NCBI GenBank assembly: GCA_026392115.1
Contig: JAPLCQ010000102.1
Location: forward strand, 1 to 48,469
Reading direction: 5' to 3'
DNA from: Armatimonadota bacterium
GTDB taxonomy: Bacteria > Armatimonadota > Chthonomonadetes > Chthonomonadales > CAJBBX01
Length of the DNA stretch: 48,469 nucleotides
Shown here: piece after piece, positions 34,712 through 48,469 of the stretch
How the letters are laid out: each line of letters begins with the position of its first letter
Position numbering within the stretch: position 1 is the stretch's first letter
Translations under genes and position numbers: made by a program
Notes under the pieces: generated by a model
Databases searched by the model: none
What the model saw: the letters and a program-made list of their open reading frames with translations, nothing else
Told to the model about the DNA's origin: nothing

Positions 34712-35778
34712 CCCTTGATGCCCGTCAACGTCACGCCCTGGATGAAGTACCGCTGGGTCATGAAAAAGAGCAGCAGGACGGGCAGCATCATCATGGTCGA
34801 TGCGGCCATCAGCAGGCCGGGCTCGCCGCCGTGCGCCGTCTGGAAGAGCTGCAGTGCGTAGGCCAACGGCATCTTGAGCGGCGAGCTGATGTAGATCAGC
34901 GGACCCATGAAGTTGTTCCACGAGCCCATGAAGGTCATGATGGTCAGGGCGGCCATGGCGGGCTTGATCAGCGGCAGCATGATGCGCCAGTAGATGCCGA
35001 AGTAGGAGCAGCCGTCGATCTTGGCCGCATCCTCCAGGTCATTCGGGATGGTGAGGAAGAACTGCCGCAGCAGGAAGACGTTGAATGCGGAGCCCAGGAA
35101 GGCCGGGGCCCAGAGGGGCTTCAGCGTATCGATCCAGCCCAGCGCGCGGAAGATCAGGAAGACGGGCATCATGGTGACCGCGCCGGGGAGCATCATCGTG
35201 GCGAGCAGCACCATGAAGAGCGGATCGCGGCCCGGCCACTTCAGCCTGGCGAAGCTGAACGCCACCAGCGAGGAGGAGAGCAGCGTGCCCACGATGGTCA
35301 GCGCACAGAGGACCAGGGTGTTCATCACATAGACGAGGCCGTTGTTCGTCTCCGGCGGCAGAAACGCCAGGGCGTCGGGGTAGTTGCGCCAGACCGGTGC
35401 GAACTGCTTGATCTTTGTGACCGCGGACCTGGGCGCCTCGAAGACCTTGCCCTTCAGTTCGGAAGGCTCGAGCACTTTCAGGCTGCGCTCACCGGTATCG
35501 CGCTCCTGTATGACGGCCGCCTTGACCCTCTTGCCGGCATAGGTGGCCTCTGCCAGCCCGGCCTCCTTGCCGTCGATGAGAACCTTCACCTGTTGGCGCG
35601 GCACCCACACCGGCGGGAACTGGCTCATGTCCTCGTCCTCCTTGAGGGACGTGACCACGAGCCACGCGAAGGGGACCAGGAAGACCAACGAGCCCGCCAC
35701 CAGAAGCAGGTGGAGGATGGCTTTGCGCCGGAACTCGCGCACCGCCCTGCGCCGCATCTGAGCCGTAAGGGGCCTCAT
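34708..35778 (-). CDS. Sugar ABC transporter permease, MalG type, with large extracytoplasmic insert
   Basis: This is a 356-residue inner-membrane permease of a CUT1 carbohydrate importer. The ATG at 35778 overlaps the stop of the upstream gene by four bases. Helix 1 (LHLLLVAGSLVFLVPFAWLVVTSL) is followed by about 90 mostly polar residues (PRQQVKVLIDGKEAGLAEATYAG onward) before helix 2. This insert is not in ordinary MalG proteins and should lie outside the cytoplasmic membrane. The EAA loop EDAAKIDGCSYFGIYWRIMLPLIKP, which docks the ATPase, is present near residue 265. The C-terminus QGVTLTGIKG is the usual MalG ending. No ATPase gene is nearby. Confidence 0.92.
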   Translation of the reverse strand: MRPLTAQMRRRAVREFRRKAILHLLLVAGSLVFLVPFAWLVVTSLKEDEDMSQFPPVWVPRQQVKVLIDGKEAGLAEATYAGKRVKAAVIQERDTGERSLKVLEPSELKGKVFEAPRSAVTKIKQFAPVWRNYPDALAFLPPETNNGLVYVMNTLVLCALTIVGTLLSSSLVAFSFARLKWPGRDPLFMVLLATMMLPGAVTMMPVFLIFRALGWIDTLKPLWAPAFLGSAFNVFLLRQFFLTIPNDLEDAAKIDGCSYFGIYWRIMLPLIKPAMAALTIMTFMGSWNNFMGPLIYISSPLKMPLAYALQLFQTAHGGEPGLLMAASTMMMLPVLLLFFMTQRYFIQGVTLTGIKG

Positions 35779-38258
35779 TTCTTCTCCGCCTCGTAGTGGA
35801 CCCACCGCGGCGCGGACTTGAGCTGCACCAGAGTCAGGGCCAGAATGATGGTGAACAGCACCCACGCCAGAGCGGATGCATAGCCCATCTTGAAGTACTT
35901 GAACGCATTGTTGAAGAGGTACATCACCGGCACCAGCAGGCTGTCTACGGGGCCTACTGAGCTACCACCCGCGCCTTGCCCGCTGAGGACGTAGACCCGG
36001 TCGAACTCCTGCAGGGCGCCGATGGTGCCCATGATGAGGTTGAAGAAGACGTACGGCGACAGCATCGGCAAGGTGACGTGGCGGAACTTCACCAGCGGAC
36101 CGGCGCCGTCAAGGTCGGCCGCCTCGTACAGATGCTGCGGGATGCCCTGCAGCCCGGCCAGCCAGAGGATCATGCCTCCGCCGGCTCCCCAAAGGCCCTG
36201 CACGATGAGCCCGGGCTTGGCCCATTCGGCGGCGCCGAACCAGCCGGGCGGCGTCCATCCGAACCACGGGGTCAGGGTCGCCTTCCACGCCGCGTTCAGC
36301 AGGCCCCGGTTCGGGTCGCCGTTCAGCACCCAGGCCCAGAGCACGGCGCTGGCAACCACCGGCACGATGGAGGGCAGGTAGAAGCAGGTGCGGTAGACGC
36401 TCATGCCGCCCACTTTGGAGTTGAGCAGCATGGCGATGGCCAGGCCGGTGGCCATGCCCAGCGGAATGCCGATGAGGGCCAGGTAGCCGACATTGTAGAG
36501 CGAGGTCTTCAGGTAGTAGCTGTCGGTGGTGAAGAGGTCGATGTAGTTCTGGAAGCCCACGTAGCGCGGCGCATGGAGCACGTCGTAGTCGCAGAAGCTG
36601 AGGAACATGGACGCCACGATGGGCCCGGCCGTCAGCGCCAGGAAGCCCAGAATCCGTGGCGCGGCGAAGAGGTAGCCCGCCCACGCTTCCGAGCGGACCA
36701 CACGCCCCATGCCGTTGACCCGGCGCATGCCGACAAAGGCCGCTCCGAGGAGAGCCAACACGAGCAGCGACCCGACCACGATGGGCGCCGTGGATCCGAG
36801 CAGCGGGAACCGGTCGCGACTGTGGGCCCGGTCCAGTTCCGACTGGACGACCCGCGTCGCCTCGTCCATGGCTGATTGCGCCGTCAGCTTGGTCTCTTTG
36901 TGGTGCGTGGCCTGGTCGAAGGCCCTCACATGCTCATCCCAGAGCCGCTGCCCGACGAACGTCACGGGACGGAACTTGGCGTAGGGCATCATGTCCATGA
37001 AGAGCTTGAGCGGCTTACGGTACCGGTCGGAGGTGGGCGCGAACGCCGCCATCACCGCCTCATTCACGCGCTTGTTGGCGGAGATCGTGGGGATATATGG
37101 GCGCGACTTCGAGAGGCAATACTGCTTCTGGGCCGCCGAGTCGATGAGCGCCGCCTCGGGGCTGCACATCCACTTGATGAACCGCCACGCTTCCTCGCGA
37201 TGCGCCGCGCCGCGGGGGATGGCGTAGCTGAAGCCGCCGGACCAGGTAAGGAACGGGTCCTGGCCCGCGAAGCGACCGGGCTTGCCGCCCTCGGTCTGTG
37301 CCAGGCGGTCGTCGGGCACGGGAGCCGGCGCCACCGCGAAGTCCAGGTCCGGGCGGTAGCGGCCGATGCTCTCCAGGACCCAGTTGCCGTCCACCTTCAT
37401 GGCGACCTTGCCGGTGAGGAACGGGTCCAGTTCCTGCGCCTGGAAGCCGGAGGCATAGGAGTCGATCCGCGTCACGCCGCCGAGGGCATCGTAGACGCTC
37501 ACCATGTAGTCCAGCGAGGCGACGCTTTCGGGGTTGTTCATGGTGCACTTGCGCCCGTCGGGGCTCATGAACTCGCCGCCGTTCTGCCAGCTGTAGAGGT
37601 AGAGGAAGGAGTTGCCGTAGTTCGGGATGAACCCGATCCGGTCGAAGGAGCCGCCAGGAGCCTCTTTCGTCAGCTTCTTGGCGAAGTCCCTCAACTCCGA
37701 CCATGTTCGCGGCGGCTTGTCCGGGTCCAGTCCGGCGTCGCGCAGGAGGGTTCGATTGTAGTAGAGAGCCCGGTCATCGGTGCCGGATGGGACGGCGTAG
37801 ACCTTGCCGTTGTAGACCGCCTCGGCCCAGCAAGCGTGGTAGTAGTCGGACTCACGAATGCCGTCGGGCTGCTTCTGGTCTCGGGCAATGAGGTCGTCCA
37901 AGCTGCCGAACGTGTCCCGGGAAGCCCAGTCGCCGATGGTGAAGCGGTCCTGGTGGATCACGTCTGGTGGGACGCGTCCCACGATGGCGGTCATCAGCTT
38001 CTGAGGGTTCATCTGGCCGGCGCCCATGGAGAGCACAGTGACCTTGATGCCCTTGTTGCGCGCCTCGAACGCCTTGACGCGCGCCTCCAGCCCCTTGCTC
38101 TCGGCGCCGTACTGCAGGCCCCAGACCACGAGGTTGACCGGCTCGGGGGCTGCGGTCCGCCGGCAACCTCCAAGCGCTGCCAGGCCGGCCAGACCGATCA
38201 GAACGGCCGCGAGGGCGGCGCGCAGCCTGATTCTGCGGGTATATCGAGCGACGAGCAC
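35775..38258 (-). CDS. Fused sugar-binding lipoprotein and MalF-type permease
   Basis: This 827-residue protein joins two importer parts usually encoded separately. GTG 38258 gives a basic start, a hydrophobic run and lipobox LGGC with Cys 32. Residues about 40-480 are a family 1 solute-binding protein: VNLVVWGLQYGAESKGLEARVKAFE at the start, YAVPSGTDDRALYYNRTLL, TWSELRDFAKKLTKEA, and GKVAMKVDGNWVLESI. A membrane helix follows near 490-515, then a complete MalF-like permease from about 524, with the EAA loop YEAADLDGAGPLVKFRHVTLPML near 712. Topology works: signal, periplasmic binding domain, helix into the membrane, permease. Other starts up to 38360 would overlap the divergent peptidase gene. 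The continuous frame over 2.4 kb argues against a sequencing artefact. The substrate is unknown. Confidence 0.92.
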   Translation of the reverse strand: MLVARYTRRIRLRAALAAVLIGLAGLAALGGCRRTAAPEPVNLVVWGLQYGAESKGLEARVKAFEARNKGIKVTVLSMGAGQMNPQKLMTAIVGRVPPDVIHQDRFTIGDWASRDTFGSLDDLIARDQKQPDGIRESDYYHACWAEAVYNGKVYAVPSGTDDRALYYNRTLLRDAGLDPDKPPRTWSELRDFAKKLTKEAPGGSFDRIGFIPNYGNSFLYLYSWQNGGEFMSPDGRKCTMNNPESVASLDYMVSVYDALGGVTRIDSYASGFQAQELDPFLTGKVAMKVDGNWVLESIGRYRPDLDFAVAPAPVPDDRLAQTEGGKPGRFAGQDPFLTWSGGFSYAIPRGAAHREEAWRFIKWMCSPEAALIDSAAQKQYCLSKSRPYIPTISANKRVNEAVMAAFAPTSDRYRKPLKLFMDMMPYAKFRPVTFVGQRLWDEHVRAFDQATHHKETKLTAQSAMDEATRVVQSELDRAHSRDRFPLLGSTAPIVVGSLLVLALLGAAFVGMRRVNGMGRVVRSEAWAGYLFAAPRILGFLALTAGPIVASMFLSFCDYDVLHAPRYVGFQNYIDLFTTDSYYLKTSLYNVGYLALIGIPLGMATGLAIAMLLNSKVGGMSVYRTCFYLPSIVPVVASAVLWAWVLNGDPNRGLLNAAWKATLTPWFGWTPPGWFGAAEWAKPGLIVQGLWGAGGGMILWLAGLQGIPQHLYEAADLDGAGPLVKFRHVTLPMLSPYVFFNLIMGTIGALQEFDRVYVLSGQGAGGSSVGPVDSLLVPVMYLFNNAFKYFKMGYASALAWVLFTIILALTLVQLKSAPRWVHYEAEKK

Positions 38259-38352
38259 GTGCAAACCCCCATTGGTGTGTGGCGGCGATCGGGAATGCAC
38301 TATTCTACCTTCGGCAGTTGCACGGGGACGCGGCAGAGAGGACGAGCGAACC

Positions 38353-39159
38353 ATGGACATCGGGAGCCGGGCGGTTGCGATGAGGAACGTAGTCTCGATG
38401 CGTGCGGAGCCGTCCGACCGGTCGGAACGGGTGAGCCAGGCGTTGCACGGCCATACGGTCCTTGTGCTGGAGGTCAGCGATTCCTACTGCCGCGTCCGCA
38501 CGGCCGACGAGTACGAGGGCTGGATGCCCCGTTCCGCGTTGCGTCTGCTTGCGCCGGGCGAGGTGTACCCCGATCCCAAACGGCGCAGGGTGGTCTGCCG
38601 ACCGCTCCTGCGGGTCTACGGCGACGGCACCCGCTCCGGCGCAGCGGCGCCCTACCTGTTATCGGCCGGAAGCCTCGTGGAGTGCGGCGAAGTGGTGCGC
38701 TTGGCCGACGGCTCCAGGGCGCGGCTGGCCGCGTCCGCATTGCAGGAGCCACACGATGCGGCGCCGACGCCGCGCGCCGTTCTGGCCACCGCGCGGCGGT
38801 TTCTGGGCATCCCATACCTGTGGGGCGGATCCAGCGCGTTTGGCCTGGACTGCTCCGGCTTCGTGCAGCTGGTCTTCGGTCTGTCCGGCGTGACGCTGCC
38901 GCGTGATGCCGACCTGCAGGCCGAATCGCCGCTGCTTTCCGAGCGGTCCGTCGATGCGCCGATGCCCGGCGACCTGCTCTTCTTCGGGCCCGCGCAACCG
39001 GGTTCCGGCAGGGCCATAACGCACGTCGCGATCGCCGTGTCGCGCACCGGATACATCCACTCATCGGGCGGGCTCGGCGTCGCGATCTCGCAGGCGGGCG
39101 ATGAGACGTGGCGCGGCCTCGTCCGCGTCGGTCGCCCGACGATCTGGCCGGCGCGCTAG
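38353..39159 (+). CDS. NlpC/P60 cell-wall peptidase with SH3-like domains
   Basis: This encodes 268 residues. Residues 1-130 hold two SH3b-like segments (VVSMRAEPSDRSERVSQALHG; EYEGWMPRSALRLL) and the C-terminal 130 residues an NlpC/P60 Cys peptidase: PYLWGGSSAFGLDCSGFVQ with Cys 167, THVAIAV with His 224 and YIHSSGG with His 236. Relatives such as YkfC cut the gamma-D-Glu to diamino-acid bond in cell-wall peptides. ATG 38353 follows GAGAGGA. No signal peptide is visible, so it may act in the cytoplasm on recycled muropeptides rather than on the wall. It diverges from the sugar importer, which fits a recycling locus. Its stop shares the four bases CTAG with the stop of the convergent barrel gene. 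Confidence 0.9.
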   Translation: MDIGSRAVAMRNVVSMRAEPSDRSERVSQALHGHTVLVLEVSDSYCRVRTADEYEGWMPRSALRLLAPGEVYPDPKRRRVVCRPLLRVYGDGTRSGAAAPYLLSAGSLVECGEVVRLADGSRARLAASALQEPHDAAPTPRAVLATARRFLGIPYLWGGSSAFGLDCSGFVQLVFGLSGVTLPRDADLQAESPLLSERSVDAPMPGDLLFFGPAQPGSGRAITHVAIAVSRTGYIHSSGGLGVAISQAGDETWRGLVRVGRPTIWPAR

Positions 39160-42137
39160 AAGTTAAGGCCCAGGTCGGCGTCGAACGAGCTGACCGAGTA
39201 GCTGTAGTTGCCGCTGGTGGACGTGTCGTGGCTGATCGACTGCTGGTGCCGCATGCCCACCTGGAGCCGGAGCTGCCGGCCCATATCAAACACCAGCCCC
39301 ATGTTGAAGCGTCGCGCCAACGCCGCCAGGTAACCGGTGCTGTTGGAGTGCTCGTACTCGGCGAAGACGTTGGTGGCGTGCCACACCGGATACTCGAGCC
39401 GGGTTCGTACCGAGGCCAGGTTGGTGCCGCCGGAGCCGAAGTAGGTGCCGTACCCGCCCGTATAGCCTCCGGTCCCCGTCGTGTCCGTGGTGGCCGTGCT
39501 TGTGGTGTTCTGGATGGAGACGCTGAGATCGGTGATGAGCTTGCCCCAGGGCTTGCCGCGGGCGTTCATGAACACGCCCATGTTGTGGCTGCCCCCCTCG
39601 GTCCCAAGGTAGGTGACCTTTTGGACCATCAGGCCGCTACTCAGCGAGAGCCGCTCGCCCGCGTTGTACGTGGCGCTCATCGTCACGTCGTTGCGCTTGC
39701 TGTTGTACATGTAGTCGCCGGCGCTGGCGCTGGTGCGGAACTGGGCTTCCAGCGAGAGCGCGCCGGCCGGCTGGTAGCTCACCGTGAGGCCCATGAGACG
39801 CGAGTTGCCGCCGAACGAGCCGCTACCCAAACCGTAGTACCCGGAGTTGAACCCGCCGCTGTAGTTGCCCGACCCGCCCAGCCCCGTGTTGAAACCGCCG
39901 CCGCCGTAGCCGCCGCCGCCGGTGTAGTTGTTGCCGATGCCTGTCGACTGGAACATCCGCGACAGACCGGGACCTGCGGTCGTACCGCCCGTGTTGTTGA
40001 AGATCGAGTAGCCGCCGCTGTCCTGCTTCTGGAGGTTGACGGTCAGTTGCACCGCCTTCATGGGCACGACGCGACCGGTCAGCTGCAGGTCCAACGCGTT
40101 GTTGTTGCCGCCCGTGCCGCTCTTCATGATGCTGTCTGATATCTGGGCGTCCACGGAGTAGCGCTCGCCGGGCTTCCAGCGAAGGCCGAGCCGCGAGGTC
40201 AGAGCGTCGGTGTTGTACATGGTAGGCGTGGCGCCCACGCTGGACGAGTAGGAGCCCGAGGACCGGTTCACGTTGTGGCCCAGCGACAGGTCGACGCCCC
40301 ACGGCCCGGTATTGGTCGTGTAGGCCAGCGTATCGGACTGCATCACGCTGTTGCCTGTGCCGCCGCTGTAGGTGGTGTCCATTGAGTTGTGGCTGACGCT
40401 CAGATTGCCCTTACCCAACTCCCACTTTCCCGTGATGCCGTTCTGACTGTAGTTGTCCATGCCGCTGGACGACGCCAGGCCGCCGGTGCTGGAGGTTGAG
40501 TAGGAGTACTGGGGCCGACGCGAGCGCTGGTAGTTGGCCGTTATGCTTACGCGCTTGGACGGCGTGTAGGCGATATCGGTCTGGATGCCGCGCTCGTTGC
40601 GGTTGAACCCCGGGCTCTCCACGGCCGTGAACGAGGGCGAGATGTTCTTGTAGACCCAGTTGAGCCGCAGCTTCTCGCCCGCCAGCCGGTTCTCGCCGCG
40701 AATCTGCACCGCAGTGCCGGTGGAGGGCGCCGAGGAGAGTGAGAGCCTGCTGGATGCCAACTCCGCGGTGATGGAGCCGGACTTCCCCATGGCCATCTGC
40801 GCGTCGAACCCCATTACCTGCCGATCGCCCTGCGTTTCGGTGGAGCTGACAGGCGTGTACGTGATGCGGATGATCTGCGTGCTCGGAATGGGCATCTGGA
40901 AGTAGACCCGGTTGGGCAATAGGGGATCGACGACGAAGTCGGTGCCGTAGACTTGCGGCAGCGTGCCCACGGTGACGGTCATCGGATACTTGGGCGTGCA
41001 GCCCGTCAGCTTGCCGCCGGCGTCGTACACCAATGTCACATCCACGGGCAGCTCAAGCGTGTAGGGCGTTGTGGCGCTGTTGTAGCCGTAGAACTGCTCG
41101 GTCCGATTGATGACGCCTTTGCTCGAGCCCGAAACCTGCGAGAGCATGCTGAAGCCCACCTTGGGCCCCGACGCGCCGCCGTAGTCCGCCCGCCACCCCA
41201 TGATGGCGCCGCCGCTCTGGCCGTAGTTGTAGACCTCGAACGTGACCGCAATGGTGTCGAGTTCGTGGACGATCAGCCCGTTCAGGAAGTTCAGCTCACC
41301 GGTGTAGGGGTCCAGCGTGTAGTCGGCGCCCTTCACCAACTCCCGGTTGTTGACGCGCACCCTCTCGCTGCCATCGACGATCTGGCCGGCGAAGACATAG
41401 TAGGGACCCGATCGGTTGGCGCCGTTGAGGGTGATCGTGCGCGTCTGGGCCTTCGACTTGCTCACCAGCGAGGTGAATCGCAGGTTGCGCGCCACGTTGG
41501 CGGTGACCTGGATGCCCTTCAGCGACTTGGAGAAGCCGATGAGCGAGTTACCGGTCAGGCCCGCCTGAATGTCGCCTGCGTTGACCTTGTAGTCTCGGGT
41601 GACGTAGTCGAGCGAGAGGCGGTTGTCATACGGGCTGCCGTACATGTAGTCGCTGTAGTGCGTTTCGAAGTTCAGGACGCCGAAGAGCTTGCCCCGGACG
41701 GCCAAGTCCGTACTGGTGTACCCGCCTCCCAGGGCGCGCCTGCCCAGGTACTGGGAGCTGTCGTAGGCGTCGCGGCTACCGTTTACCTGTTCCATATGGA
41801 AGCCGAGGTTGTGTGATCCCTGGAGCCGGACCTCGGACTTCGTCTGCTCGCCGATCCGCTGGAGCTTGTTGCGGAGCCCGCCCAGCATGCGGTCGGCCTT
41901 CTTCGGCCTCTCGGTTTCGAAGGGGGTCTTGCCGCCCTTGGTCTTCTTCGGCTTCTTGGCGCCGACCTTGGCCTGTTCGTCGCGCTGCTGTTTCAGTTCC
42001 GACGGCGACAGCGTATGGACGCGCCGCATGATGTCCCATGCGCTCTCCGCCCTTTCGGTGGCCACCTGCGCGGTAGTGCGGGATGTCGCCGCCAGGCAGG
42101 TCACGAGGACCAGAACCGACAGGACGCGGCCGATCAT
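39156..42137 (-). CDS. Giant outer-membrane beta-barrel protein
   Basis: This encodes 993 residues from ATG 42137. A signal peptide (IGRVLSVLVLVTCLAATSRTTAQ) is followed by a charged, Lys-rich region (KKPKKTKGGKTPFETERPKK). From about residue 100 there are many alternating amphipathic strands (LFGVLNFETHYSDYMY; RVSITANYQRSRRPQYSY; LSLSSGLMVQKVTYL) and Gly/Ser/Tyr/Asn-rich loops, including a GGGGYGGGGF stretch near 755. The last residues, DADLGLNF, end in Phe, the usual signal for barrel assembly by BamA. A large barrel in the outer membrane is therefore well supported; the function (porin, secretion channel or structural anchor) is not. It overlaps csaB by four bases, linking it to surface-layer anchoring. 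Confidence 0.85.
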   Translation of the reverse strand: MIGRVLSVLVLVTCLAATSRTTAQVATERAESAWDIMRRVHTLSPSELKQQRDEQAKVGAKKPKKTKGGKTPFETERPKKADRMLGGLRNKLQRIGEQTKSEVRLQGSHNLGFHMEQVNGSRDAYDSSQYLGRRALGGGYTSTDLAVRGKLFGVLNFETHYSDYMYGSPYDNRLSLDYVTRDYKVNAGDIQAGLTGNSLIGFSKSLKGIQVTANVARNLRFTSLVSKSKAQTRTITLNGANRSGPYYVFAGQIVDGSERVRVNNRELVKGADYTLDPYTGELNFLNGLIVHELDTIAVTFEVYNYGQSGGAIMGWRADYGGASGPKVGFSMLSQVSGSSKGVINRTEQFYGYNSATTPYTLELPVDVTLVYDAGGKLTGCTPKYPMTVTVGTLPQVYGTDFVVDPLLPNRVYFQMPIPSTQIIRITYTPVSSTETQGDRQVMGFDAQMAMGKSGSITAELASSRLSLSSAPSTGTAVQIRGENRLAGEKLRLNWVYKNISPSFTAVESPGFNRNERGIQTDIAYTPSKRVSITANYQRSRRPQYSYSTSSTGGLASSSGMDNYSQNGITGKWELGKGNLSVSHNSMDTTYSGGTGNSVMQSDTLAYTTNTGPWGVDLSLGHNVNRSSGSYSSSVGATPTMYNTDALTSRLGLRWKPGERYSVDAQISDSIMKSGTGGNNNALDLQLTGRVVPMKAVQLTVNLQKQDSGGYSIFNNTGGTTAGPGLSRMFQSTGIGNNYTGGGGYGGGGFNTGLGGSGNYSGGFNSGYYGLGSGSFGGNSRLMGLTVSYQPAGALSLEAQFRTSASAGDYMYNSKRNDVTMSATYNAGERLSLSSGLMVQKVTYLGTEGGSHNMGVFMNARGKPWGKLITDLSVSIQNTTSTATTDTTGTGGYTGGYGTYFGSGGTNLASVRTRLEYPVWHATNVFAEYEHSNSTGYLAALARRFNMGLVFDMGRQLRLQVGMRHQQSISHDTSTSGNYSYSVSSFDADLGLNF

Positions 42138-43189
42138 CGGGCGACGACCTCGGCGACCAGGGCGGCCGTGCGCAGAGCCTCGCGACGCAGCTCAACGCTG
42201 CGGGCAGCCTGGAGCCGGCGAATCTCAGGCGCGGCTGCCAGCGCCGACTTGCAGAGAGCCTGCACGCGAGCGCTGTCGAACTCCTCAGTGCAGTAGGCCG
42301 CGAGTCTCGCCGAACTCATGAAGGACTTCACCTTTGGGTCGTACGAAAGGGCTACCACCGGGGTAGCCGCCATCACCGCGAACACCAGTGCATGGAGGCG
42401 CATGGCCACCACGACACTGGCGCAGCGCACCAGATCGATCGCCGACGCGACATCCGGCAGTTGCGCCACGAAGCAGCCATCACCTGCCAACTCCGCAGCC
42501 TCGCGGGCGAGCGCCACATCGTCGCCGGTATGCATTGCCAGCAACGCCACGCGGTGCAGCCCCTCGCCCTGTACCGCCCGCACCAGCTTGGCCGCGTCCG
42601 CCGCTGTCCGAAGCGAAGCCCACGTCCGCAGGGCCAGCACCGCTAGTCCGCCGCCGGGTTCCGTCCTCGGGAGCTCCGTCAAGGCGAAGGCCGGGTCGGC
42701 GGTCACCTCCAGCCGCGCCGCCGCGCCGCCGATCCGTCGCACCAGTTCCGCCGACTCAGGGTCGCGAACCGTCACCAACGCCGCAGTCCGGAACGCCGCC
42801 GCGGTGATGGTGCGCGACAACGGTCGATGCAGCGGCCCCACTCCCTGCGCGTAGACCACAGCCGGGCGACCCATGCGGCGGGCCAACCAGAGATAGCCCG
42901 CATAGTAAAGTAGCGACCGAACGCTCGTGGCGTCCTGGAAGAGGCTTCCGCCACCGGAGACCGCCACATCCGTCTCGGCCATCGCCGTCCGCACCGCACG
43001 CGCGTCCATCCTTGGTACGGCATGGATGCCGTGCCACGTTTCCGTAGACGCCGCTGCGCCGGACAGGGCCACCAGTCCCTTGCTGTCGCCGAACTGGTGC
43101 GCCCATGAGTGGACGATGCCGCCAAGGACCGCCTCATCGCCCAGGTTCCCGCATCCGTAGTAGCCGCACAGCAGGCCGCGGAGGCTCAT
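42134..43189 (-). CDS. csaB: Polysaccharide pyruvyl transferase CsaB
   Basis: This encodes 351 residues of the pyruvyl transferase family. CsaB adds a ketal pyruvate to wall-linked polysaccharide so that SLH domains of surface-layer proteins can bind. The N-terminus LLCGYYGCGNLGDEAVLGGI is the family signature, followed by VSGGGSLFQDATSVRSLLYY and GQGVGPLHRPLSR-like text (AQGVGPLH). VVAMRLHALVFAVMAATPVVALSYDPKV marks the C-terminal half. ATG 43189 overlaps the preceding gene's stop by four bases, and its own stop overlaps the barrel gene start by four. The arrangement DUF5693-like, csaB, barrel points to one pathway of surface-layer attachment in a diderm cell. Confidence 0.94.
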   Translation of the reverse strand: MSLRGLLCGYYGCGNLGDEAVLGGIVHSWAHQFGDSKGLVALSGAAASTETWHGIHAVPRMDARAVRTAMAETDVAVSGGGSLFQDATSVRSLLYYAGYLWLARRMGRPAVVYAQGVGPLHRPLSRTITAAAFRTAALVTVRDPESAELVRRIGGAAARLEVTADPAFALTELPRTEPGGGLAVLALRTWASLRTAADAAKLVRAVQGEGLHRVALLAMHTGDDVALAREAAELAGDGCFVAQLPDVASAIDLVRCASVVVAMRLHALVFAVMAATPVVALSYDPKVKSFMSSARLAAYCTEEFDSARVQALCKSALAAAPEIRRLQAARSVELRREALRTAALVAEVVAR

Positions 43190-45180
43190 GTGGTTGGGCG
43201 CGTACCCGCTTGGTCGGCCGCCGTACGCCGCCCAAGCAGAGGCCACGCGGCGCAACCGATGGCGCAGCCCAGGATAAGCCCGATAGTCACCCGGGCTGCG
43301 GACAAGTGGACGGGGGTATGGATGTGACAGAACGTGTTGACTATCGAGACCAGCCCCAGCATTCCCACGATGGTGAGCACCGGCGCCCATGTGCGCCGGC
43401 CCGTTGCGGCGTACGCGGCGCCCAGGAAGATCAGCGGGTGGCCGATCAGGAACTCCTTCGTGCGCGGGCGTACGATGAGAAGCGCGTCTAGAATCGATCG
43501 GAGGCGCAACTCCCACCCGGATACTCCGATGCCGGGATCGTTGCCGGTGCGGGCCACGGCGAACGCGAGCGCCACCAGCGCGACCATCGCTCCGGCAAGC
43601 ATACCCACGTGAATTCGGCTGGCCAGGAAGTCCGCGACGCGCGTACGCATAGAGGGCAGCGCGGCGCGCAGGCTCTCGCCCGGCCCGGGTAGCCCGGTGA
43701 CGGCTGCCAGGGCCACCAGCAGCACCGGTAGCGCGTGGGCCAGTTTGATGCCGGCGAACTGCTCCGTATGGAGCATGAAGTCGCGGTTGCAGAGCAGACC
43801 CACCACGAGGAGCCCGCCCGCCGCCGACAGCGCCGCACCGCCCAGGAGGCCCTTCAGGCCCGCGGCGATGGGCGACGATGTCCTGGCTCCGGCAACGGCG
43901 CCGCATCCCGATAACAGCCGAAGCCCTGCAAGCGTGGGACAGGCGACGGCCGCGATCAGAGCCGCCGCCTTGGCCCCCGTGTGTCCCGCAACGCCGCCTG
44001 CGGCCATGGCCAACGCCACCAGGAGCAGGCCGACGACGACCGGAGCGCTCGCCTCGCCCAGGATGGCGAGCAGCACGAGTACGACCGCCGCGCCGGCGCC
44101 CAACCCGGCCAGAGCGCGCACGGCGACCGGCGCCGCGGGCTCTCCCAACAGCTTCGCCGGCCCGGTCGCCATCTCGCCCCGCTTACCCAGGCCGCCGCTG
44201 ATCGCGCTGATCATGGCGAGGTTTTCGCCGACCGGGTCAGGACCGGTGAGGAAGGGGAGGCGCACATAGCATAGCCGGATGTTCCGCTCACGGGCGGCGC
44301 GCACGAAGCGTTCCACAGCCTCAGATGGGGCGATCTGCGACAGCTCCGCTTCGGCGATGCTGTGCACCCGCAGGAACCGCCCCTTCAGTAGCTCGGCCAA
44401 TCGCTCGTCGCCCTTCTGTTTGCCGAACTCCACCTGCCCCCAGGTCAGGCCGCTAGCCGTGAGCGCGTCCGCCGCATCGGGCAAGCCGGATCGGAACCCC
44501 ATGACCTCGGTTCCGGTGAAGATGACGCTCCGCGCGCCCAGAGACCACGCAGACCGTAGAGAAGCAGTCATCGAGGCGAGACCCGCTCCGGGGTAGTTGC
44601 CCAGGCGCGCCACGATGCGCAGTCCGGCCCGCTGGACCTCGGCGCAGTCCTGCTTGGCGAGGCCCGTGCCGACGGTGAGCAGCGTCTCAGCATCCGCAAG
44701 GAAGGCGGCCACCGTGACCGGCGTGCCCAAGTCGCCTGGAGCCACGGCCTCATAGCGAACCAGAGTGACGTGCGCGTTCGGCGGAGGCGCAGAGGCGGAC
44801 GCGGCGGCCAATCCCCTGTCCTCCAGCGCTGAAGCGATCTGGTCGGCCACCTCCCGGCTCGAGCAGAGCAGCATCGATTCGGCTCCGTTCGAGGTGAGGC
44901 GGGCGAGACCGGTCTGGCACATCTCGGCGACCGTAAGCTCGCTGACGCCGACGGAGGTCACGCCGAGCGCCTTGAACCGGCGGAGGATCGCCGCCGAGGT
45001 TACGCCCTGAGTGGTGGCCAGGGCCCTGACCTGGATCAGGTCGATGCACATCTCGACGCGCCGGTTCCGCGCCTCGGTTCGGTGGCGCTGAAGTCCCAGC
45101 CAGATCGATGCGCCGACGCCGACGAACAGGATTGCCCACGCGATGCGCCTTGCGAAGAGAGACAGCACACACCCTCCCAT
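43186..45180 (-). CDS. DUF5693-like polytopic membrane protein
   Basis: This encodes about 664 residues from ATG 45180 (GTG 45189 is an alternative). One N-terminal membrane helix is followed by a soluble extracytoplasmic domain of about 320 residues that contains RRFKALGVTSVGVSELTVAEM and VRAARERNIRLCYVRLPFL, the pattern of the DUF5693 family found beside csaB in many Firmicutes. The second half has about nine or ten hydrophobic helices, ending with a short cytoplasmic tail. The partner role of DUF5693 in pyruvylation is unproven; the membrane part could move a lipid-linked glycan to be modified. It heads the operon behind the minus-strand promoter at 45214-45241. Confidence 0.8.
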   Translation of the reverse strand: MGGCVLSLFARRIAWAILFVGVGASIWLGLQRHRTEARNRRVEMCIDLIQVRALATTQGVTSAAILRRFKALGVTSVGVSELTVAEMCQTGLARLTSNGAESMLLCSSREVADQIASALEDRGLAAASASAPPPNAHVTLVRYEAVAPGDLGTPVTVAAFLADAETLLTVGTGLAKQDCAEVQRAGLRIVARLGNYPGAGLASMTASLRSAWSLGARSVIFTGTEVMGFRSGLPDAADALTASGLTWGQVEFGKQKGDERLAELLKGRFLRVHSIAEAELSQIAPSEAVERFVRAARERNIRLCYVRLPFLTGPDPVGENLAMISAISGGLGKRGEMATGPAKLLGEPAAPVAVRALAGLGAGAAVVLVLLAILGEASAPVVVGLLLVALAMAAGGVAGHTGAKAAALIAAVACPTLAGLRLLSGCGAVAGARTSSPIAAGLKGLLGGAALSAAGGLLVVGLLCNRDFMLHTEQFAGIKLAHALPVLLVALAAVTGLPGPGESLRAALPSMRTRVADFLASRIHVGMLAGAMVALVALAFAVARTGNDPGIGVSGWELRLRSILDALLIVRPRTKEFLIGHPLIFLGAAYAATGRRTWAPVLTIVGMLGLVSIVNTFCHIHTPVHLSAARVTIGLILGCAIGCAAWPLLGRRTAADQAGTRPTT

Positions 45181-45213
45181 GGAGCCCACCGGCCGCGGCC
45201 CGCGCGCTCACGG

Positions 45214-45745: not shown

Positions 45746-47041
45746 ATGCGCAACCTGTGGGCGCTCGTCGCCCTTGCCGTTTGCATTGCCGCGCCTTGTT
45801 CGACCGCCGGCGCGCAGACCACCGCGCCCGCCGACTTGGAGCAACTAAAGGCCCTCGTGGCCAAGCAGGCTGAGACCATTCGCGACCTGCAAGAGCGCCT
45901 GACTAAGCTCGAGGGGAGCTCTGCCGCCGTCGGGGCGCAGGTCGCCGACGGGCCGCCCGTGCCGACGATGACGCTTCCCGGACCGACAAGCCGCCCGCCG
46001 GCCGCCGGCCAGAGCGGCGCCGCTTCCGCGCTCCCCGACATCGCGGTCTTCGGCAACAACCTCGGCCGAATGCTCACCGCCAAGGGCGAGCCGTCCCGCA
46101 GCCAGTTCAGGATCTCGGAGCTCGAACTCGCCCTGCAGCAACGCGTGGCTGATGGCGTCCTATTCCGCTCGACATTGGCGGCGGGCGAGGGAGCGGACTT
46201 TGCCATGGGCCTTGAGGAGGGTTATGTCACCTTCACCAGGCTTGGCGTGCCCGGCCTCGGGGGCTCACTGGGCAAACGCCGGTTGCCGTTCGGCAAGCTG
46301 AACTCGATACACCCCCACGCCGCACCCTATGCTGAGACGCCGTCGGCGCATCGCTATCTCGCCGATCCCGACGGCGTCGCCGGCAACGGCGTAGCTTTGA
46401 ACTGGCTTCTGCCGGTGCCGTCCCTCTTCGCCAACCTTGAACTGGGCGCGGTGCGCGTCGGCGCATCGGACGCCGTGGTCGCTCGGCCCGACGTGACCGG
46501 CGCGACGCTGCCACTTGGCTTTGGCGCCACCGGCACGGTCCCCATGGGGCGGCTCTGGCTTTCCAGGGCGCTGAACACGGCCACAGAACTGGAGATGGGC
46601 TCGAGCGCCCTGGCGGGCAAGGCCGACAGCGGAGACGCAGTACGCCTGGTCGGTGCGGACGTGACGCTCAAGCAGATGGTCGGTGCATTCAGCCGTTGGC
46701 AGGTTCAAGGAGAGGCGTTGTGGCATACGCGCAGGGATGCCGGCTCCGGCCTATCGCACACCCGTTCCGGCGCATACGTAGCGGCGCTCTATGCACCGGA
46801 CCAGTACCGCGAGTTCGGCCTGCGCTACGATGACAGCCGCTTGCCCTGGCCGCTGGAGGGAGGCGAACGGCTGCTCTCCCTGATCTGGTCCAATCGCCTG
46901 ACGGAGAGCTCGCTCTGGCGCCTGCAACTGGCGCACGGGGACCGAACCACGGACGCCCTGCTGCCGTCGCGGCGCGGTCTCACGGAGTTGACGTTGCAGT
47001 TTGTCTGGGGTGCGGGGTCACACTCGCATCCACTACAGTAG
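45746..47041 (+). CDS. Outer-membrane porin-like protein with N-terminal coiled coil
   Basis: This encodes 431 residues after a GAGAGGAAG ribosome site. The signal peptide ends AGA-Q. Residues about 30-60 form a coiled coil (LEQLKALVAKQAETIRDLQERLTKLE), then comes a Pro-rich linker. From about residue 95 the sequence alternates as barrel strands (FRISELELALQQRV; VLFRSTLAAG; EEGYVTFTRL), as in porins of the OprP or zinc-associated type whose N-terminal coiled coil reaches toward peptidoglycan. The C-terminus ends with LTLQFVWGAGSHSHPLQ, with two His. It lies 12 bases before a ZnuA/TroA-type binding protein, so it is probably the outer-membrane entry for the same metal. Confidence 0.8.
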   Translation: MRNLWALVALAVCIAAPCSTAGAQTTAPADLEQLKALVAKQAETIRDLQERLTKLEGSSAAVGAQVADGPPVPTMTLPGPTSRPPAAGQSGAASALPDIAVFGNNLGRMLTAKGEPSRSQFRISELELALQQRVADGVLFRSTLAAGEGADFAMGLEEGYVTFTRLGVPGLGGSLGKRRLPFGKLNSIHPHAAPYAETPSAHRYLADPDGVAGNGVALNWLLPVPSLFANLELGAVRVGASDAVVARPDVTGATLPLGFGATGTVPMGRLWLSRALNTATELEMGSSALAGKADSGDAVRLVGADVTLKQMVGAFSRWQVQGEALWHTRRDAGSGLSHTRSGAYVAALYAPDQYREFGLRYDDSRLPWPLEGGERLLSLIWSNRLTESSLWRLQLAHGDRTTDALLPSRRGLTELTLQFVWGAGSHSHPLQ

Positions 47042-47053
47042 GAGGAGGCCGCA

Positions 47054-47962
47054 ATGAGAACCCGAAGCGCACTGCTTATCGCCGTTGCGGCCGCGGCCCT
47101 CTCCCTTGGCCGTGCCGGCGCAGACGTGACCGTCATCACAACCGACACCAACCTGGCGGACATCGCCAAGCAGGTGGCGGGTGACAGGGCCTCCGTGGAG
47201 TCCCTCGCGCGTCCGTCTGACGACCCGCATCACGTTGTTGCGCGCCCGAGCATGATCGTGAAGCTAGCGCGGGCCGACGTCTTCGCACGTATCGGCATGG
47301 GACTCGACATGTGGGCCGATGCGATCATTGATCGCTCGGGTAACGCCGCGGTCCAACCGGACGGGAAGGGCTATGCCGACTGCTCACGGGGGCTAAAGGC
47401 GTTGGACGTGCCCTCGGGCAAGATCGATCCCTCCATGGGCGACCTGCATCCCGAAGGCAATCCGCACTATCTGCTGGACCCGGCCCAGGGCATTCTGGCG
47501 GCCGGCAATATCGCGGCCGCGCTCATCAGGGTGGACCCTGCCGGTCAGCCCTACTACCACGCGCGGTTCCTGCAGTTCGGTGAGCGCGTGAAGTCCGGCC
47601 TCCAGCGTTGGTCGGCCACGCTCAAGGGCATCCCAAGCCGCGATGTGGTGCCGTACCACAAGACCTGGGCCTATTTCCTTGCGCGTTTCGGTCTGCGCGA
47701 GTTCGGAGTGCTCGAGCCCAAGCCTGGCGTTGAGCCGTCTCCCGGGCATGTGAGCGCTTTGGCCCAAGCCATGAAGCAGGTCGGGGTCCGGGTCATCCTG
47801 TGTGAGCTGTTCCGGGCTAAGCGCTGGCCCGACCTCTTGGCGAGCCAGAGCGGCGCTGTAGCCGCCTTCGTGCCCACGTCCGTCGGCGCCGATCCTCAAG
47901 CAGACAGCTACATAGCCATGTGCGATACCATCGTACAGCGCCTTGCCGGCGCGGCCAGGTAG
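47054..47962 (+). CDS. Metal ABC transporter substrate-binding protein (ZnuA/TroA family)
   Basis: This encodes 302 residues of a cluster A-I (cluster 9) binding protein for Zn2+ or Mn2+. AGGAGGAGG precedes the ATG. The signal peptide ends near RAGA-D. The metal ligands can be placed: His 59 or 60 in DPHHVVARP, His 138 in NPHYLLDP, His 202 in VPYHKTWAYFLARFGL, and probably Asp 284 in QADSYIAMCD. The backbone helix and EPKPGVEPSPGHVSAL are typical. The long His-rich loop of ZnuA is missing, so high-capacity zinc buffering is not suggested; Zn or Mn cannot be separated from sequence. The ATPase follows three bases later. Confidence 0.92.
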   Translation: MRTRSALLIAVAAAALSLGRAGADVTVITTDTNLADIAKQVAGDRASVESLARPSDDPHHVVARPSMIVKLARADVFARIGMGLDMWADAIIDRSGNAAVQPDGKGYADCSRGLKALDVPSGKIDPSMGDLHPEGNPHYLLDPAQGILAAGNIAAALIRVDPAGQPYYHARFLQFGERVKSGLQRWSATLKGIPSRDVVPYHKTWAYFLARFGLREFGVLEPKPGVEPSPGHVSALAQAMKQVGVRVILCELFRAKRWPDLLASQSGAVAAFVPTSVGADPQADSYIAMCDTIVQRLAGAAR

Positions 47963-47965
47963 CCG

Positions 47966-48469
47966 ATGCTCTCTACCGACTCCGTGCTGGCCCGATTGGT
48001 CACCATTCGCTCTGCCGCTCTGGGGTACTCCGGCAAGCCGGTGCTTACCGGAGTGGACCTCGACATACGGGAGGGTGACCACATCGGCATCGTAGGGCCG
48101 AACGGCAGCGGCAAGACTACGCTGCTGCGGTCCATTCTGGGTCTCTTGAAGCCGATTGCCGGCGAGGTCAGCCGGGCCGCCGGCGTTACCATAGGATACG
48201 TGCCTCAACGCGATACGGTCGAGCCCACTTATCCGCTGACCGTGCTCGATATCGTGCTCATGGGCCTCTACCGCCGCGTAGGGGCCCTGCACCGGCTTGC
48301 TGCGGACCACCGCGCTGCAGGCATGGAGGCGCTCGGGCACGTGGGCTTGGCTGACCTGGCGGACCGGTCGTTCCGTTCCTTATCCGGCGGGCAGAAGCAG
48401 CGGGTCCTGCTCGCCCGGGCCCTTGCCGGCAGGCCGTCGCTCCTTCTGATGGATGAGCCGACCAACGGG
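47966..48469 (+). CDS. Metal ABC transporter ATP-binding protein, 5' part
   Basis: The first 168 residues of an ABC ATPase are present; the gene is cut by the window end. Walker A is GPNGSGKTT near 43-51, the Q-loop is YVPQRD, the signature is LSGGQKQR and Walker B LLLMDEPT. The text RDTVEPTYPLTVLDIVLMG matches ATPases of zinc/manganese importers (ZnuC/MntB type). The ATG at 47966 is three bases after the stop of the binding protein gene. The permease gene is expected just beyond the window. Confidence 0.93.
   Translation, partial: MLSTDSVLARLVTIRSAALGYSGKPVLTGVDLDIREGDHIGIVGPNGSGKTTLLRSILGLLKPIAGEVSRAAGVTIGYVPQRDTVEPTYPLTVLDIVLMGLYRRVGALHRLAADHRAAGMEALGHVGLADLADRSFRSLSGGQKQRVLLARALAGRPSLLLMDEPTNG

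Follow-up and report, generated by a model that had tools for sequence, protein, structure and literature searches.

The type IX secretion system (T9SS) is generally regarded as restricted to one lineage, the Bacteroidota. In a 2016 survey it was confined to Bacteroidetes (PMC4793230), the structure of its translocon SprA (Sov) has been reported (PMC10994853), and its type A domains carry an almost invariant basic residue (Lys) near the C-terminus (PMC10994853). OmpM/SlpA-like proteins, the other described system that concerns us here, have already been reported in Armatimonadetes (PMC9388160), and the SLH domain of OmpM binds pyruvylated polymers in some diderms (PMC10628300); given these reports, the csaB/SLH part of the locus analysed in this study is ordinary for diderm Terrabacteria, and what stands out is the third gene of the operon, which encodes a very large outer-membrane barrel. 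Among the papers searched, none connected SprA or CsaB to Armatimonadetes or mentioned DUF5693 by name. Judged from sequence comparison, the barrel probably serves as outer-membrane translocon in a protein-export route that resembles the T9SS and is genetically coupled to the CsaB/SLH envelope system.

Operon structure and conservation in the Armatimonadota

The window, by which we mean the whole stretch of DNA analysed (48,469 nucleotides), is one contig of the Armatimonadota assembly G000 (5.7 Mb, 98.6% complete), whose closest named relatives are Chthonomonas-type genomes. Three genes on its minus strand form the operon: a DUF5693 membrane protein gene (43186-45189, with an alternative start at 45180), csaB for a polysaccharide pyruvyl transferase (42134-43189), and the gene of a 993-aa outer-membrane barrel of a SprA-like family (39156-42137), assigned from a match to TIGR04189 and an AlphaFold2 model. 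Both junctions, DUF5693/csaB and csaB/barrel, are 4-bp ATGA overlaps. The DUF5693 protein matched PF18949 (Pfam; E 5e-132), and CsaB matched both PS_pyruv_trans PF04230 (Pfam; E 1.5e-31) and TIGR03609 (257.8 bits, above the equivalog cut-off of 213.1), which bears out the assignments made for these two genes in an earlier, sequence-only reading of the locus. Its description of a trio with four-base overlaps was confirmed at both junctions, as was that of a barrel of 993 residues ending in Phe (C-terminus ...GLNF), and its placing of an outer-membrane barrel as the third gene is supported.

A gene for an SH3-NlpC/P60 peptidoglycan endopeptidase (38353-39159, plus strand; PF00877 E 4.9e-19, PF18348 E 6e-12) converges on the operon, its stop overlapping that of the barrel gene by 4 bp. 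It recurs in the same convergent arrangement at 5 other loci of the window's family, and may or may not belong to the csaB-barrel system. Beyond it, a single frame (35775-38360, minus strand) fuses an SBP_bac_1 solute-binding protein with a BPD_transp_1 ABC permease domain, a fusion also found in two same-genus genomes. On the other side of the operon, a porin-like protein composed of a coiled coil and a barrel, which had no family match (45746-48469, plus strand), is encoded upstream of a ZnuA/ZnuC-like metal uptake pair.

The AlphaFold2 model of the DUF5693 protein (pLDDT 79, pTM 0.78) predicts one TM helix, an extracytoplasmic alpha/beta (TIM-barrel-like) domain and approximately 10 C-terminal TM helices; a fold search with the extracytoplasmic domain returned weak TIM-barrel matches alone, none of them at E<=0.001. 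A role in making or flipping the wall polymer is a guess. DUF5693 and CsaB resemble the known pair that pyruvylates the secondary cell-wall polymer: their genes were adjacent in 107 of the 125 phylum genomes in which both were placed, among the matches listed, and DUF5693, CsaB and SLH all gave matches in Thermus, Deinobacterium and Thermotoga, which served as control genomes. What differs here is the third gene of the operon, the SprA-like barrel.

This barrel was found in all 12 genomes of the window's family and in 29 of the 42 sampled Armatimonadota families. Of 201 phylum genomes, 149 matched its profile at E<=1e-3 and 139 still did so at E<=1e-15. The sequence-only reading had made its proposal depend on the barrel gene not lying apart from csaB in most relatives, and on this point the outcome was mixed: the DUF5693-csaB-barrel order was kept in 10 of the 10 family genomes with all three genes placed, but across the phylum csaB and the barrel gene were adjacent in at least 55 of the 97 genomes with both listed (15 families), the adjacency counts being lower bounds drawn from the matches listed. 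In every adjacent case (55/55, among the matches listed) csaB was located upstream of the barrel gene on the same strand. In 8 further families the two genes were present on separate contigs only, and assembly breaks may lie behind some of these separations, but DUF5693 and csaB are kept together in most of the genomes where the two were placed.

Sequence and predicted fold of the barrel in relation to SprA

By eye, the barrel carries a Sec-type signal peptide (residues 1-24, MIGRVLSVLVLVTCLAATSRTTAQ; 42066-42137, minus strand). Barrels from two genomes of the same genus are 91% identical to it, those from the rest of the family 38-50%, and this retention indicates a real coding sequence; a C-terminal Phe is present in 10 of 11 aligned family members. 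The protein had no Pfam match, a profile search of the barrel and its 10 aligned homologues revealed no SLH or known wall-binding domain, and a PDB sequence search with the family profile gave no match.

TIGR04189 (SprA, NCBIfam) was the single model to match most members of the barrel family. The window's barrel matched it over residues 249-334 (E 5.1e-8), and matches were also obtained for 9 of the 11 barrels of its family (best E 1.4e-10) and 25 of 33 barrel representatives across the phylum (best E 2e-21), with four matching stretches in one member. The scores are nevertheless far under the equivalog cut-off of 200 bits (30.6 bits for the window's barrel, 54.8 for L081). The two SLH porins of the same genome and the neighbouring porin-like protein, searched with the same model, did not match. 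The SprA-signature segment of the barrel (residues 244-303, GPYYVFAGQIVDGSERVRVNNRELVKGADYTLDPYTGELNFLNGLIVHELDTIAVTFEVY; 41229-41408, minus strand) overlaps the TIGR04189 match, and many of the few invariant or near-invariant columns of the cross-family alignment fall in the segment GPYYVFAGQIVDGSERVRVNNRELVKGADYTLDPYTGELNFLNGLIVHELDTIAVTFE, in or beside that match. Sequence comparison thus makes the barrel probably a distant homologue of SprA and a wall tether improbable. Like SprA, it is an outer-membrane barrel with a GSErVxvNG...GxDYxxDYxTGxixF...I.v.FE segment, and it accompanies candidate cargo with a C-terminal Ig-like domain and a conserved basic residue near the end; unlike SprA, the Armatimonadota barrel measures approximately 850-1,260 aa as against approximately 2,300 aa, the window's barrel being under half as long as SprA, and it is encoded with csaB and DUF5693 in a Terrabacteria phylum.

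The AlphaFold2 model of the barrel, of low confidence (pLDDT 63, pTM 0.42), traces strands between residue 102 and the C-terminal Phe (993), with approximately 35 long strands, two small inserted beta domains and a Gly-rich insert predicted to be disordered (residues 709-776; 39810-40013, minus strand; pLDDT <50), in which GGG/GNYSGG residues are conserved across the window's family. SprA reportedly has 36 strands, according to a structure from 2018; the predicted number resembles this, and the model is too weak to claim a SprA fold. Foldseek with this low-confidence model recovered SprA (8gl8) at rank 36 (E 2e-6) with a poor superposition (TM 0.22), and VIA-align did not place SprA among the matches listed, which does not count against it. 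The top structural match by Z was the MtrB barrel 6r2q_B (Z 19.1, rmsd 10.4, 444 aligned), and the fold matches of the model are mostly generic barrel matches.

Of the other T9SS components, PorV and GldM were also sought. The PorV model NF033709 had no match in the window's genome; weak, scattered matches occurred in 79 of 201 phylum genomes, and a single PorV-family protein exceeded the curated cut-off, with 174 bits, in a barrel-negative genome (G131:C98:5484-6320; L174). The GldM model TIGR03517 had no match in the 201 genomes, and no control genome matched it either. Because these parts are missing (PorV in the window's own genome, and GldM by a search that had no positive control), the system should not be filed as a T9SS; it may only work like one.

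Candidate cargo proteins and their association with the barrel

In other families of the phylum, the barrel gene is followed by a gene for a protein of approximately 1,000 aa that ends in a FlgD_ig domain. The window's genome encodes at least six proteins of approximately 930-2,640 aa that share their C-terminal 84 residues or so, among them a subtilase; C180 (1,101 aa) of this genome is an apparent orthologue of the barrel-linked protein. In all 36 high-scoring ORFs (30 phylum loci and the six of the window's genome, one protein being counted twice) the domain extends to the stop or to a few residues short of it, and Arg is the final residue. Using an HMM built from the six domains of the window's genome alone, same-strand domain proteins were found directly adjoining the barrel at 12 loci, which represent 11 families, whereas approximately one would be expected by chance at any position in the 719 kb searched, given some 7 copies per 5 Mb; in family f14, the barrel-linked protein lacks this domain.

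The domain resembles TIGR04183 (the T9SS type A sorting domain) and FlgD_ig (PF13860) in being a C-terminal Ig-like domain with a PxGxY motif, placed at the extreme end of large secreted proteins and bearing a terminal basic residue. It differs from the type A domain in that the terminal residue is Arg, in contrast to the conserved Lys near the end of the latter (PMC10994853), and in having FlgD_ig as its nearest curated match, the matches to TIGR04183 being weak and under cut-off (E 0.0044 at best). FlgD_ig-type domains were also present in control bacteria that have no SprA.

Across the 201 genomes, 137 had both the barrel and the domain, 54 had neither, 2 had the barrel only and 8 the domain only (E<=1e-15 for each), counts that are inflated by relatedness and by partly clustered absences and that rest on a domain profile whose seeds came from barrel-bearing genomes. 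By family, the corresponding numbers were 29, 11, 0 and 2, and domain copies per genome were 6.9 versus 1.45 in the barrel co-occurrence comparison. Among the ten discordant genomes, five have a completeness below 75%, and two come from a family whose barrel is diverged or undetected. On a DUF5693 tree of 50 genomes, approximately 10 changes of barrel state were placed, at least 4 of them on well-supported branches; in the approximately 4 independent contrasts that resulted, the domain changed in the same direction as the barrel in 2.9 and in the opposite direction never (sign test p 0.25), a test that is not significant because the well-supported contrasts are too few.

Several of these gene neighbourhoods have further features. 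In the window's genome, three C-terminal-domain proteins, one of them a subtilase, are encoded in tandem (L139:4561-18431, minus strand). The barrel-linked proteins of four loci (L102:13653-16463, L091:4157-7396, L081:12588-15731 and L075:3779-6640) contain an H..l.AYH...D.WEEGF..-like stretch reminiscent of a gluzincin metallopeptidase site in degenerate form. At L091, L101, L102, L103, L076 and L089, LptA/LptC-like genes and genes for CarboxypepD_reg lipoprotein-like proteins (CGG lipobox) lie downstream of the gene for the barrel-linked protein.

Alternative roles of the barrel and the proposed export route

The sequence-only reading had placed the trio in an SLH/S-layer envelope and proposed that the barrel serves as an envelope tether, replacing or partnering SLH-domain porins. 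The context was borne out, as the window's genome encodes three SLH proteins and 190 of the 201 phylum genomes contain SLH proteins. Eleven genomes had no SLH match at E<=1e-3, and nine of them were searched again at E<=10, which recovered diverged OmpM-type SLH proteins in several (G070, G079, G146 and G189; for example MNKTLKLALSAVLG...FPDVPENHWAYQALENLKDKVLFGYPDGFYRGPRMTSRYEFA) and a different weak pair in G117. Two genomes of one genus, G156 and G171, gave no SLH match even at E<=10, so that a few genuinely SLH-poor genomes may exist. Two of the three SLH proteins of the window's genome are SLH-linker-barrel porins of the OmpM/SlpA kind (L020:1842-3866 and L021:1772-3571), with a TRYE motif and matches to iron-uptake-porin models. 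These porins occur in the same genome and the trio's barrel lacks an SLH domain, so the idea that it takes the place of SLH porins is rejected.

A tethering role, in which the barrel would bind the pyruvylated polymer or the wall, hold the outer membrane and assist OmpM, is accordingly quite unlikely and probably the wrong job for this protein. The barrel shares with OmpM/SlpA its nature as an outer-membrane beta-barrel in an SLH/pyruvylated-polymer envelope, it is encoded in an operon with csaB in 15 families, periplasmic contact could be made by a region in front of the barrel, which has ETLWDxL motifs and is predicted to contain helices, and a wall endopeptidase gene converges on the operon. 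However, it contains no known wall-binding domain, the genome has genes for true OmpM-type proteins at other loci, nearly all genomes of the phylum have SLH proteins, and the barrel's phyletic pattern tracks that of the C-terminal-domain proteins instead. Furthermore, in 13 Armatimonadota families that have csaB, SLH proteins and mostly DUF5693 as well, there is no strong barrel match, which argues that the polymer system works without the barrel. The homology to SprA and the C-terminal-domain partners favour export over tethering.

The linkage to csaB would also suit an exporter of glycan or lipid (AlgE/EpsL/LptD-like), whose substrate at the outer membrane would be the polymer, an exopolysaccharide or an LPS-like lipid. 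LptA- and LptC-like genes come after the barrel-linked genes in some families, AlgE is among the structural matches, 2 of 33 barrels had weak EpsL matches, and no LptD was found in the family (PF04453 in 0 of 12 genomes, with E. coli and Caulobacter controls positive). We consider this role unlikely, since the structural matches are generic to many kinds of barrel, EpsL matches are weaker and much rarer than those to SprA, and neither an OstA/LptD_N domain in the barrel nor an LptA/LptC link beside the window's trio was found. LptD itself was ruled out as the identity of the barrel, which has no PF04453 match and no OstA domain. Least probable of the roles weighed is that of a general or specialised large porin, such as an MtrB-like or nutrient channel, whose membership in the csaB operon would be coincidental; the MtrB barrel as best structural match by Z and the lack of a known Pfam domain would fit such a porin, yet the constant position and strand relative to csaB in 15 families, the conservation of the SprA signature across families, and the tight co-occurrence and linkage with C-terminal-domain proteins all speak against it.

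For the protein-export route that we favour, the following scheme can be drawn. The product of the third gene would form a single very large beta barrel of approximately 35 predicted strands with two small inserted beta domains, acting as an outer-membrane translocon. Its cargo would be large surface proteins exported by Sec, whose last 80 or so residues form a FlgD_ig/T9SS-CTD-like domain ending in -xxxR at the stop, and the barrel would read this domain as a sorting signal. CsaB, together with DUF5693, would finish and pyruvylate the wall polymer that SLH/OmpM porins bind, and the joining of exporter and polymer enzymes in one operon may allow the two sides of the envelope to be built together.

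In broader terms, we tentatively suggest that the Armatimonadota possess an SprA-type export of their own, which has a compact SprA homologue and C-terminal-tagged cargo, lacks a motor of the Bacteroidota type, and is linked genetically to a polymer-pyruvylation module that anchors the outer membrane. If so, SprA-type export would be older or more widespread than the T9SS of Bacteroidota. An SprA homologue that occurs with C-terminal-tagged candidate cargo across most of a Terrabacteria phylum would offer a compact comparator for the translocon and bear on the origin of the T9SS, and it would provide an example, from an early-branching diderm phylum, of a link between surface-protein export and an SLH-based envelope.

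Two minor observations concern SLH proteins. Families f21, f19, f24, f8, f9, f34 and others have csaB, DUF5693 and SLH proteins and no strong match to the barrel or the C-terminal domain, and may differ in their surface or lack an outer membrane; the genomes of f21 contain at least 25 SLH matches each. In the window's genome, a small secreted SLH protein (L002:1432-2100, plus strand) is encoded directly after an mreB-like gene.
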